From assembly GCF_001623525.1 (NCBI RefSeq), contig NZ_CP015225.1:6212501-6276500 (forward strand): a DNA stretch of 64,000 nucleotides, written 5' to 3'. The stretch comes from Pseudomonas fluorescens (GTDB taxonomy: Bacteria > Pseudomonadota > Gammaproteobacteria > Pseudomonadales > Pseudomonadaceae). Below are positions 33,182-34,887 of the stretch, piece after piece. Under the pieces are notes generated by a model. The model made no database searches. It was not told where the DNA came from and saw nothing but the letters and a program-made list of their open reading frames with translations. A program made the translations under genes and the position numbers. Positions within the stretch are counted from its first letter, which is position 1. Each line of letters begins with the position of its first letter.

Positions 33182-33206
33182 TGTCCACTTGCGAACACAA
33201 AACCCT

Positions 33207-33237
33207 GTGGCGAGGGAGCTTGCTCCCGCTGGGCTGC
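33207..33237. repeat. Left part of a REPIN split by the IS110 element
   Basis: GTGGCGAGGGAGCTTGC to GGGCTGC is a normal family-2 left unit. It stops at the GA core and resumes at 34786. Confidence 0.93.
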
Positions 33238-33251
33238 GATATAGGTAGTCC

Positions 33252-33455
33252 GTTCCTTGCTCCCCCATACTGATACTCGCTGGAGTCCGGTTGTTGCGAG
33301 GAAGGAACATGCACCTGCGAGCTACGAATAGGGCTGCAACGCATCTCGATGATTACTGCTTCACCTTCGAGCCCAGCAGGTGCGCTTGCGCCCTCTAACG
33401 AACACTCAGGGAAAGCCGGGCACGGCTCTCTATATCGCCTTCGCTGGACGCAAGC
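33252..33455 (+). ncRNA. Predicted bridge RNA of the IS110 element
   Basis: Three consecutive stem-loops are predicted. (1) A 5' stem pairs GTTCCTT (33252-33258) with AAGGAAC (33302-33308). (2) A target loop is closed by GCACCTGC (33311-33318) and GCAGGTGC (33376-33383). It carries GGGCTGC (33331-33337), identical to the left REP flank, and CTGCTTC (33356-33362), the reverse complement of core GA plus the right REP flank AGCAG. (3) A donor loop is closed by GCTTGCG (33384-33390) and CGCAAGC (33449-33455). It carries CTCAGGG (33405-33411), identical to the right end of the element 3 nt before the core, and CTATATC (33430-33436), the reverse complement of core GA plus the left end TATAG. The layout follows the IS621 bridge RNA model. 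Expression is not shown. Confidence 0.75.
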
Positions 33456-33498
33456 ATGCATGTTCCTGCATGTACTTTAGCGTCTGTGGAGGTGTGCG

Positions 33499-34767
33499 AT
33501 GCAAACGCTCTTGTCTCAGAAATTCACTGCTTATATCGGAATTGATTGGGCCGATACCAAACATGACGTCTGTTTGCAGGTTGCTGGGCAAGCCCAGCGG
33601 TGCTTCTCGGTCATCCGACACAACCCCGAAGCTATTGATCAATGGGCTCATGCGCTGTATCAGCGTTATGGCGGTCCTATCGCCATTGCCGTGGAGTTAG
33701 ACAAAGGACCGTTGATAGCGGCCCTGCAAAAATATGATTTTTTTTGTTTGTTCCCGATCAACCCCGCCACCTTAGCCAAGCAGCGTAAGGCCTTCGTTCC
33801 CAGCGGTGCGAAGGACGATCCGAGCGATGCCCAGTGGGCACTTGAGCTATTGCTCAAGCATCCCGACAGATTTCCCCAGCAGGAGAAACAAAGTCCTGCC
33901 ATACGTTCTCTGGCTAGCTTGACTGAACATCGGAGAACCTTGGTTGATGAGCGGGTAAGAATCAGTAATCGGTTGGTTTGCATGCTCAAGCAGTACTATC
34001 CGTTGGCGCTGGAGTTGTTCCACGATCATGACACACAGGTGTTCTGTGATTTCCTGGAGCGCTGGTCGACGTTGGAAACACTTAAACGTGCTCGGCCTAC
34101 AAGCGTTTTGAAGTTTCTTAACGCGCATAATGTTCGCCATGCAGAACTCAATCAGCAGCGTCTGGCCTTGATCCTCAAGGCCACGCCGCTGACAGAGGAT
34201 CCGGGGATTGTTAACCCTTCAGCGCTGTATGTGCGGACCCTGGCATCGCAACTGAGTGGGATGCTGGTGGCGATCAAGCAGTTTGATGCGGCGATCGAAG
34301 AAACGGCCAATACCCTGGCCGATTACAGCCTCTTCAAATCCTTGCCTGGAGCCGGGCAACAGCTTGCACCACGGCTAATGGTAGCTTTTGGTGAGCAACG
34401 TGATCGCTTCAAGGATGCTGGTGCTATGCAGCGATATGCCGGGATCGCTCCGGTTACCGAGCGCAGTGGCAAGAAGAAAATCGTTCGCTGGCGCTATCAA
34501 TGTTCAACCTTTTTGCGCCAGACATTTGTCGAGTGGGCTGCCCACAGCATCAATCAATCGGTATGGGCAGGGGCGTACTATCGCCAACAGAAGGCCAAAG
34601 GCTGCTCTCATCAAGCAGCCCTGAGGGCACTGGCTTTTAAATGGATCAGGATCGTTTATCGGTGCTGGAATGCTGGATCCCAGTATGACGAGAGCGTCTA
34701 TTTACAAGCCTTGGCCCGCCACGACTCGCCTTTGATAAGAGCACCGGAGGCAACGAAAGCATGTTGA
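33499..34767 (+). CDS. IS110-family transposase (recombinase)
   Basis: This 422-residue recombinase has the IS110 plan. The N-terminal RuvC-like DEDD domain has D16 (YIGIDWAD), E66 (AVELDKG), D107 and D110 (KDDPSDAQ). A coiled-coil follows. The C-terminal Tnp domain has SLPGAGQQLAPRL and the presumed catalytic Ser323 in TERSGKKKIVRW. IS110 enzymes recombine a circular donor with a target using a bridge RNA; here that RNA can be read just upstream. GGAGGTG upstream of ATG 33499 is a strong ribosome-binding site. The frame is intact, so the element may be active. Confidence 0.93.
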   Translation: MQTLLSQKFTAYIGIDWADTKHDVCLQVAGQAQRCFSVIRHNPEAIDQWAHALYQRYGGPIAIAVELDKGPLIAALQKYDFFCLFPINPATLAKQRKAFVPSGAKDDPSDAQWALELLLKHPDRFPQQEKQSPAIRSLASLTEHRRTLVDERVRISNRLVCMLKQYYPLALELFHDHDTQVFCDFLERWSTLETLKRARPTSVLKFLNAHNVRHAELNQQRLALILKATPLTEDPGIVNPSALYVRTLASQLSGMLVAIKQFDAAIEETANTLADYSLFKSLPGAGQQLAPRLMVAFGEQRDRFKDAGAMQRYAGIAPVTERSGKKKIVRWRYQCSTFLRQTFVEWAAHSINQSVWAGAYYRQQKAKGCSHQAALRALAFKWIRIVYRCWNAGSQYDESVYLQALARHDSPLIRAPEATKAC

Positions 34768-34785
34768 CGGAAGAGCTCAGGGCGT

Positions 34786-34878
34786 GAAGCAGCCCCAATA
34801 ACGCACTGACAACTCGGTGCGTCTGGCTGATCCAAGGGGGCTGCTGCGCAGCCCAGCGGGAGCAAGCTCCCTCGCCAC
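34786..34878. repeat. Right part of the REPIN split by the IS110 element
   Basis: It resumes with GAAGCAGCCCC and ends with GCTCCCTCGCCAC, completing the unit begun at 33207. The rejoined REPIN would be about 124 bp, a normal size. Confidence 0.93.
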
Positions 34879-34887
34879 AAGGGCATC

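Follow-up and report, generated by a model that had tools for sequence, protein, structure and literature searches.

A bridge RNA has been predicted in 85.7% of IS110 insertion sequences (Durrant 2024, PMC11208160). IS621 inserts into repetitive extragenic palindromic (REP) sequences of Escherichia coli (PMC11208160; also a title cited in PMC11187229), and its structure and handshake pairing were reported in 2024 (PMC11208158), the year in which natural target redirection was described for IS110 elements (PMC11187229). In Pseudomonas, IS110 elements have been known from REPs since 2006, namely ISPpu9 and ISPpu10 and also ISPa11 (PMC1525189). Target and donor guides have been predicted for ISPpu10 (Durrant 2024, Extended Data Fig. 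10c legend, PMC11208160), and the tnp mRNA of ISPpu9 has a structured 244-nt 5' untranslated region (5'-UTR) and two small RNAs (PMC8450116). The first authors of PMC11208158 and PMC11187229 are Hiraizumi and Siddiquee, respectively. Here we analyze a 64,000-nt stretch of Pseudomonas fluorescens DNA (contig NZ_CP015225.1, positions 6,212,501 to 6,276,500; the window), in which an IS110-group element sits inside a REP. With its left core, the element occupies window positions 33238-34785; the genome is 6.92 Mb in a single contig.

We conclude with high confidence that this is an intact IS110-group insertion sequence that relies for its movement on a bridge RNA specified by its left end and, judging from the sequence, very probably a working bridge-RNA recombinase. 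A preliminary description of the locus called it a new, REP-targeting bridge RNA system. The bridge RNA and the REP targeting stand, but the claim of a new kind does not, given that ISPpu9 and ISPpu10 also lie in REPs and that guides were predicted for ISPpu10. The element is another example of a system first described in 2024, and its value lies in the comparison across its subfamily rather than in REP targeting.

The element, its guides and its copies

Joined across the element, the flanks read GGGCTGC-GA-AGCAG, the two halves of a REP; placement inside a REP, proposed earlier, was confirmed base by base on both sides. The leader upstream of the recombinase frame (33240-33498, 259 nt) is non-coding in our reading and contains guides that correspond to both the target and the element ends, as follows.

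33207 to 33237, + strand: left half of the interrupted REP, ending in the left target GGGCTGC at 33231-33237 (from sequence)
33238 to 33239, no strand: core dinucleotide GA of the left junction (sequence, copy comparison)
33240 to 34785, + strand: IS110-group insertion sequence, left end TATAGGTAG..., right end ...CTCAGGGCGT (boundaries common to nine copies whose outer flanks differ)
33311 to 33383, + strand: target-binding loop with its stem (fold, alignment, stem covariation)
33331 to 33337, + strand: left target guide GGGCTGC, equal to the 7 nt before the left core and covarying with the flanks
33356 to 33362, + strand: right target guide CTGCTTC, complement of core GA plus right flank AGCAG; its last two nt are the core guide UC
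33363 to 33364, + strand: target-loop handshake guide AC, complementary to donor GT at 34784-34785; weak across the family
33384 to 33455, + strand: donor-binding loop with its stem, adjoining the target loop without a linker (fold, stem covariation)
33405 to 33411, + strand: left donor guide CTCAGGG, equal to 34776-34782 in the right end and followed by AAA facing DNA CGT
33430 to 33436, + strand: right donor guide CTATATC, complement of GA plus left end TATAG; its last two nt are the core guide UC
33437 to 33438, + strand: donor-loop handshake guide GC, complementary to the target GC before the core
34776 to 34782, + strand: left donor (LD) CTCAGGG, in the right end of the element
34786 to 34796, + strand: core GA and right half of the REP (AGCAGCCCC)

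The guide matches are directly visible. All four 7-nt matches first proposed for this leader are exact, including those of CTCAGGG and CTATATC to the element ends, and each occurs once within the 259 nt. Target guides come first and donor guides second, each left before right, and both this order and the strand sense agree with IS621, as had been suggested. The earlier judgment that chance is a very unlikely source was borne out by 20,000 dinucleotide-preserving shuffles of a 195-nt interior of the leader: 16,745 contained no match, 3,056 one, 196 two and 3 three, and none contained all four.

Site specificity is equally direct. The genome holds nine full-length copies, all inserted in REPs at the same base, between ...CTGCGA and GAAGCAG (one, L006, on the other strand). 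The left flank of one copy (L003) reads GGACTGC instead of GGGCTGC. The guides are unchanged in all nine, and the target loop varies at one base, 33345, outside them; the case named in the preliminary description as speaking against a guide function, an unchanged loop in copies at unrelated sites, was thus not encountered among them. The joined REP 14-mer GGGCTGCGAAGCAG has 79 exact occurrences in the genome (42 forward and 37 reverse; 0 for a control read backwards), and 504 with up to one mismatch (control, 3). Many sites are therefore still free, and targeting REPs gives the element many near-identical landing places. Among the sites listed with up to one mismatch, most exact REP sites had seemed to lie on the + strand, an apparent orientation bias that we dropped on the full exact count. 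The interrupted REP belongs to a doublet; the second REP follows in the opposite orientation at window positions 34836-34880.

The frame that follows the leader encodes the recombinase, with candidate signals for its translation and for transcription of the leader.

33499 to 34767, + strand: recombinase, 422 aa, with DEDD_Tnp_IS110 and Transposase_20 domains
33488 to 33492, + strand: GGAGG, likely ribosome-binding site
34764 to 34769, + strand: TTGACG, possible -35 box in the circular form, overlapping the stop codon
33240 to 33245, + strand: TATAGG, possible -10 box at the circle junction, by analogy with IS621

The protein scored 82.5 bits for DEDD_Tnp_IS110 (Pfam cut-off 29), 58.5 for Transposase_20 (21.3) and 159 for NF033542 ('IS110 family RNA-guided transposase'; cut-off 140), and it matched the solved IS621 chain by profile (E 3.5e-11). 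Residues D16, E66, D107, D110 and S323-G324 align with IS621 D11, E60, D102, D105 and S241-G242 (PMC11208158, read with a two-residue numbering offset that we infer). They are invariant in 56 of 56 proteins, comprising the window protein, 45 of 120 listed proteins and 10 fetched loci. The recombinase is thus intact, as first described, with an open frame, both domains above cut-off and the catalytic residues in place.

The guides could be read correctly and the copy could still be a dead passenger, mobilized in trans or immobile, since nine copies that diverge from the window copy by no more than 16 bases would also fit recent spread by other means. We consider this unlikely: five of the nine, among them the window copy, show no difference over 1548 bp, the remaining four carry 15 or 16 differences, and the open frame, the catalytic residues, both ends and all guides are intact.

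Assuming an element that moves with its own bridge RNA, a route can be proposed by analogy with IS621. The stop codon lies 18 nt from the right end, and the joined ends read TTGACG-18 nt-TATAGG. In the relatives described below, TTGAC occupies the -35 place in nine of the 13 classes with both ends read and TTGT in three; neither occurs in L045. On excision as a circle, the right end would supply the -35 box and the left end the -10 box for transcription of the bridge RNA. The first loop would pair with the REP through GGGCTGC on one side and GA plus AGCAG on the other, and the second with the joined element ends through CTCAGGG and GA plus TATAG. The DEDD/serine recombinase, bound to the RNA, would exchange strands at GA, so that each copy would land in the loop of the REP hairpin GGGCTGC-GAA-GCAGCCC. 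Expression, formation of the ribonucleoprotein and strand exchange are steps that we infer from sequence.

Fold of the leader RNA

The preliminary description proposed a fold with a 5' stem followed by two loops, and its three stems were found. The target-loop stem pairs GCACCTGC (33311-33318) with GCAGGTGC (33376-33383), and the donor-loop stem, which starts at 33384, the next base, pairs GCTTGCG (33384-33390) with CGCAAGC (33449-33455). Folding z-scores are -3.42 for 33250-33455 and -2.93 for 33250-33470. The RNA had been placed at 33252-33455; the stem and loops do lie there, but conserved structure runs on to about 33467. Three features are listed in addition to the loops.

33252 to 33308, + strand: 5' stem-loop of the bridge RNA, GTTCCTT (33252-33258) with AAGGAAC (33302-33308)
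33303 to 33313, + strand: 5' strand of an outer helix closing both loops, overlapping the 3' arm of the 5' stem
33457 to 33467, + strand: 3' strand of the outer helix, TGCATGTTCCT (alignment fold; within the match of model R1 at 33305-33467)

Covariation of the structure is observed in an alignment of 25 distinct RNAs (A2). In the loop stems 97.3% of cells are paired, compared with 27-40% when one partner is slid by one to three columns, and the compensatory changes that it had been suggested to look for appear as two-sided changes in 13 of the 27 pairs. Both loops are closed by the same CGAA/TTCG pair beside an extra A, which recalls the flipped-out A's of IS621 (PMC11208158). The 5' stem has weaker support than the loop stems: 80.9% of cells are paired across the 25 sequences (slid controls, 38-55%), and its count of two-sided pairs is not above shuffles (118 of 500).

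RNAalifold, unprompted, paired the 3' tail with the segment between the 5' stem and the target loop. This outer helix, counted as eight pairs, is 91% paired (slid controls at most 53.5%), and five of its pairs show two-sided changes, a number reached in 0 of 500 shuffles. Its variety of pair types, on the other hand, does not exceed that of shuffles (442 of 500), and the outermost two pairs do not form in 10 and 7 of the 25 sequences. Among the pair types are A-U, G-C and U-A at one position and C-G and U-A at a second; changes are seen in the enterobacterial sequences, in L105 and when Paraburkholderia L040 is compared with L042. In the window RNA, the outer-helix form (lowest energy, -83.2 kcal/mol) and the 5'-stem form (centroid, -81.8 kcal/mol) are nearly equal.

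A covariance model of the leader had also been suggested as a check. We built one (R1) from 18 relatives, leaving out the window group and its 75% relatives, and it matched the window once in 64 kb, at 33305-33467 (128.8 bits, E 4.7e-34), a score that is not purely structural, as letters as well as structure are conserved among its sequences. R1 finds all nine genome copies and matches seven of the 29 loci searched; the 20 loci taken to represent distant relatives in the IS110 family (L019-L025, L027-L039, some of them truncated at contig ends) gave no match. Because no distant relative matches, the bridge-RNA type found here seems to be one among others.

ISPpu9, with its structured 244-nt 5'-UTR and two small RNAs (PMC8450116), offers a precedent for reading such a leader as only a regulatory 5'-UTR, sequestering or antisense, and not as a guide RNA. 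The competition between outer helix and 5' stem would allow a regulatory role to be added, and a second role of this kind is compatible with guiding. As the sole function it is very improbable: under it, neither the four guide matches nor the way they covary with flanks and element ends would be expected.

Guides and sites across the subfamily

Relatives of the recombinase occur at 73-75% identity in other Pseudomonas, at 51-60% in Paraburkholderia, P. izuensis, P. putida, one Moraxellaceae and one gammaproteobacterial metagenome-assembled genome, at 60% in Cupriavidus, and at about 50% in ISEsa2-like elements of Enterobacterales plasmids; two further genomes of the same class also carry relatives. 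The donor-loop pattern was present in 4 of 398 Pseudomonas genomes, our own included, so close members are sparse. Recombinases at E 1e-60 or better were found in 3 of 398 genomes of the phylum, again including our own and with few candidates scored per genome. Related bridge RNAs were read in 14 of 15 viral contigs that match the donor-loop pattern (the fifteenth, L098, shows no target loop), and a search of viral contigs by protein found none; as a source of empty sites, viral contigs gave only 10 palindrome-like sites, which were not informative. Same-type bridge RNAs occur on Cupriavidus (L061) and Thiodictyon (L069) plasmids; L069 has donor guide CTCAGAG facing DNA CTCAGGG, and no left end was found for it. 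In P. putida ASAD (L046) the recombinase frame is broken, with eight stops in a straight translation of the match, and the bridge RNA and guides remain readable.

The comparison covers 51 element places, chosen by a pattern demanding CTCAGGG and C[TC]ATAT in the RNA, with right ends chosen by a pattern demanding CTCAGGGC[AG]T; the invariance of those letters is therefore partly by construction, and other donor guides would be missed. Repeats of the same places were excluded (L010, L052-L060, L074, L076-L078, L080, L082-L088). Some redundancy was kept: L042 and L043 have identical flanks, L012 and L049 are probably one genome, and L091 and L093 look alike. L069, whose letters differ, and L047, L065 and L098, which lack a readable target loop, stand outside the 51; L067 lacks a left end, and L046 entered the RNA alignment and not the protein alignment. 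Grouping by target-loop sequence gave 16 classes, among which 15 left and 16 right guide zones are distinct.

Guides and targets covary. Across the 16 classes the left guide matches its own left flank over an average of 7.44 nt (longest exact match), compared with 3.39 nt across classes. For the right guide, with G-U allowed, the corresponding values are 6.78 and 4.30 nt over the 13 classes that have a right flank. For each guide, 0 of 20,000 permutations reached the own-match value, counts that are not strict probabilities, as the classes are related by descent. The changes in RNA and in DNA sit in opposite places, guide and flank: GGGCTGC faces GGGCTGC in the window, GCCTCCC faces GCCTCCC in L012, and CCCGACCC faces CCCGACCC in L061, and there are two enterobacterial guide types, GAGCGA and GTGCCA. 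The check proposed earlier, guide/target covariation, thus turned out largely as expected, with the changed guides of relatives in matching sites and a few misfits such as L066. From these sequences, target choice appears to reside in the RNA, as relatives with other loops occupy correspondingly different sites. That the protein alone recognizes the REP hairpin, with the leader matches as by-products of ancestry or chance, agrees with the single target shared by our nine copies and with the imperfect palindromes targeted by several relatives, but it is scarcely credible and we rejected it, as it is contradicted by 73-75% identical recombinases sitting in quite different sites that follow their own loops, and by the absence of equals among 20,000 shuffles and 20,000 permutations.

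Several observations weigh against guidance by the bridge RNA as set out here. L066 combines a GTGCCA-type guide with a GAGCGA flank. The left guide of L044 contains a mismatch, its match to its own flank (4.0) does not exceed that of other guides (4.1), and the right core of this element is GG. The right guide of L105 matches over only 5 nt, L003, L091 and L093 each have one left-flank mismatch, and L045, L050 and L051 each carry an additional nt in front of the core. The left donor guide and left donor hardly vary, so that their pairing draws no support from covariation, and its three core-proximal positions do not pair. The 25 RNAs come from few lineages, so permutations and shuffles overstate significance, and the effective sequence number of R1 is 1.57. 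We list here, without weighing it as contrary evidence, that Rfam gave no match at the gathering threshold (window) or at E up to 1 (33200-33520).

Further misfits are the right flanks of L062, L063, L064, L067, L104 and L105, which differ from the right guide. Enterobacterial L062 and L064 have a common right flank, different left flanks and unusual dinucleotides on the left (TA and TC), a pattern suggestive of rearrangement following insertion. The 75% relatives L011, L012, L013, L044 and L049 occupy sites of the form ..C(A/G)GCCTC(C/T)C-GA-(A/G)GGGGCGG.. and variants, recurring between genomes, apparently a second repeat family used as target. Enterobacterial sites (L090, L092, L096, L097, L100, L102) and empty relatives (L337-L339) are imperfect palindromes, TCCGCTT...TGAGCGA/TGTGCCA..AGCGGAC, and the subfamily seems to favor palindromic repeats.

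The left donor guide had been described as ending 3 nt short of the core. The gap is real, but it is a mismatch rather than a shift, and it is subfamily-wide rather than specific to this copy. RNA CTCAGGG-AAA-G lies colinear with DNA CTCAGGG-CGT-core G, so in the window the pairing does not extend up to and including the core, with 3 of 3 core-proximal positions unpaired. At 50 places the RNA has CTCAGGG, three nt and G, and wherever the right end was read the DNA has CTCAGGG, C[AG]T and a core G; L044 has GG instead of GA after C[AG]T. The three RNA letters vary (AAA, TTT, TTC, CTT, CTC, CAT), and in the enterobacterial type two of them would pair with CGT. Among loci fetched by protein, only L069 has a different left-donor RNA (CTCAGAG) and only the fragment L014 a different right end (CTTAGGG). 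Seven base pairs followed by a core-proximal gap are thus the rule for the left donor guide of this subfamily. The right donor guide covaries once, in L105, where left end TATGG accompanies RNA CCATA.

The target base that precedes the core is paired with the one following the right donor guide in 15 of 16 classes, in 13 of them by Watson-Crick pairs. These pairs include G-C, T-A and A-T, and 32 of 20,000 permutations were as good; the pattern fits the handshake pairing of IS621. The second donor-loop handshake base pairs in only some classes. At the handshake guide of the target loop, A faces donor T in 10 of the 13 classes with the donor read, G forms a wobble in L066, and T forms no pair in L045 and L062. 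As the donor T never varies, this is not covariation, and the AT/AT pair of L013 may be a coincidence.

The core guide is identical in both loops in all 16 classes, nine with UC and seven with UU (three classes have no right flank, and there the right-target core guide was assigned from its position). With UC, the left dinucleotide is GA in 21 of 22 places; among the 28 places with UU, 7 have GA and 24 have two purines. The right junction is GA in 38 of the 39 places with both sides read. At 18 places another dinucleotide stands on the left and GA on the right, and the reverse holds in one (L044). Three empty or related sites of the enterobacterial type, from two insertion sites, have cores TG, GG and AA; these are partial homologues, no place covering 80% of the query. 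In this type, it seems, the left junction retains the dinucleotide of the target and the right junction has the GA of the element. Such a rule is invisible for the window element because the REP core is itself GA. ISEc21 is reported to insert without duplication (PMC11187229), which may be the same effect.

Tentatively, and with somewhat less than even confidence, we combine these patterns into one scheme, in which the subfamily would have a bridge-RNA architecture of its own. The outer helix would close the loops into a linker-free three-way junction that competes with the 5' stem, a possible switch; the core guide would set stringency (UC accompanying GA, UU a relaxed and mostly purine core); and the three donor positions would be kept unpaired on purpose.

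Comparison with known systems

A single recombinase subfamily spans Pseudomonas, Paraburkholderia, Cupriavidus, Moraxellaceae and Enterobacterales, with guides and sites changed together in 16 classes. This series gives evolutionary support to the handshake-guide model and yields testable rules for core recognition, and the compact, linker-free bridge RNA is a possible tool. No paper on this subfamily was seen by title or abstract start among the matches listed, a weak negative, as most subscription journals and preprints lie outside the coverage. The 259-nt non-coding region upstream of tnp places the element in the IS110 group; the guide RNA does not lie downstream of tnp as in the IS1111 group, whose sub-terminal inverted repeats of 7-17 bp were not searched for.

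ISEsa2-like IS110 elements of Enterobacterales plasmids have about 50% identical recombinases and the same bridge-RNA framework. They differ in their target, TGAGCGA/TGTGCCA ... AGCGGAC rather than a Pseudomonas REP, and in a UU core guide with a variable core. ISPpu10 and ISPpu9 of Pseudomonas putida likewise insert into Pseudomonas REPs, a likeness by description rather than by sequence. Also by description, the seekRNA elements ISEc21 and ISMch6 share an upstream guide RNA, a circle-junction promoter and natural target redirection, but have another target and no reported duplication of the insertion site.

The closest parallel in architecture is IS621 of E. coli (IS110 group; structures 8wt6-8wt9). 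Both elements carry the bridge RNA in the left end, with the target loop before the donor loop, and share the strand logic of the four guides, a REP target, a DEDD and serine recombinase and a promoter at the circle junction, predicted in our case. Unlike IS621, with its solved chain of 328 residues, the present element encodes a 422-aa recombinase that is only distantly similar, has core GA rather than CT, and leaves three core-proximal donor positions unpaired. Its loops adjoin, whereas those of IS621 span nt 34-98 (target) and 110-177 (donor) (PMC11208158). In two further respects it departs from IS621 as described: a covarying helix closes both loops, and core guides UC or UU accompany a strict or a relaxed core within the subfamily.

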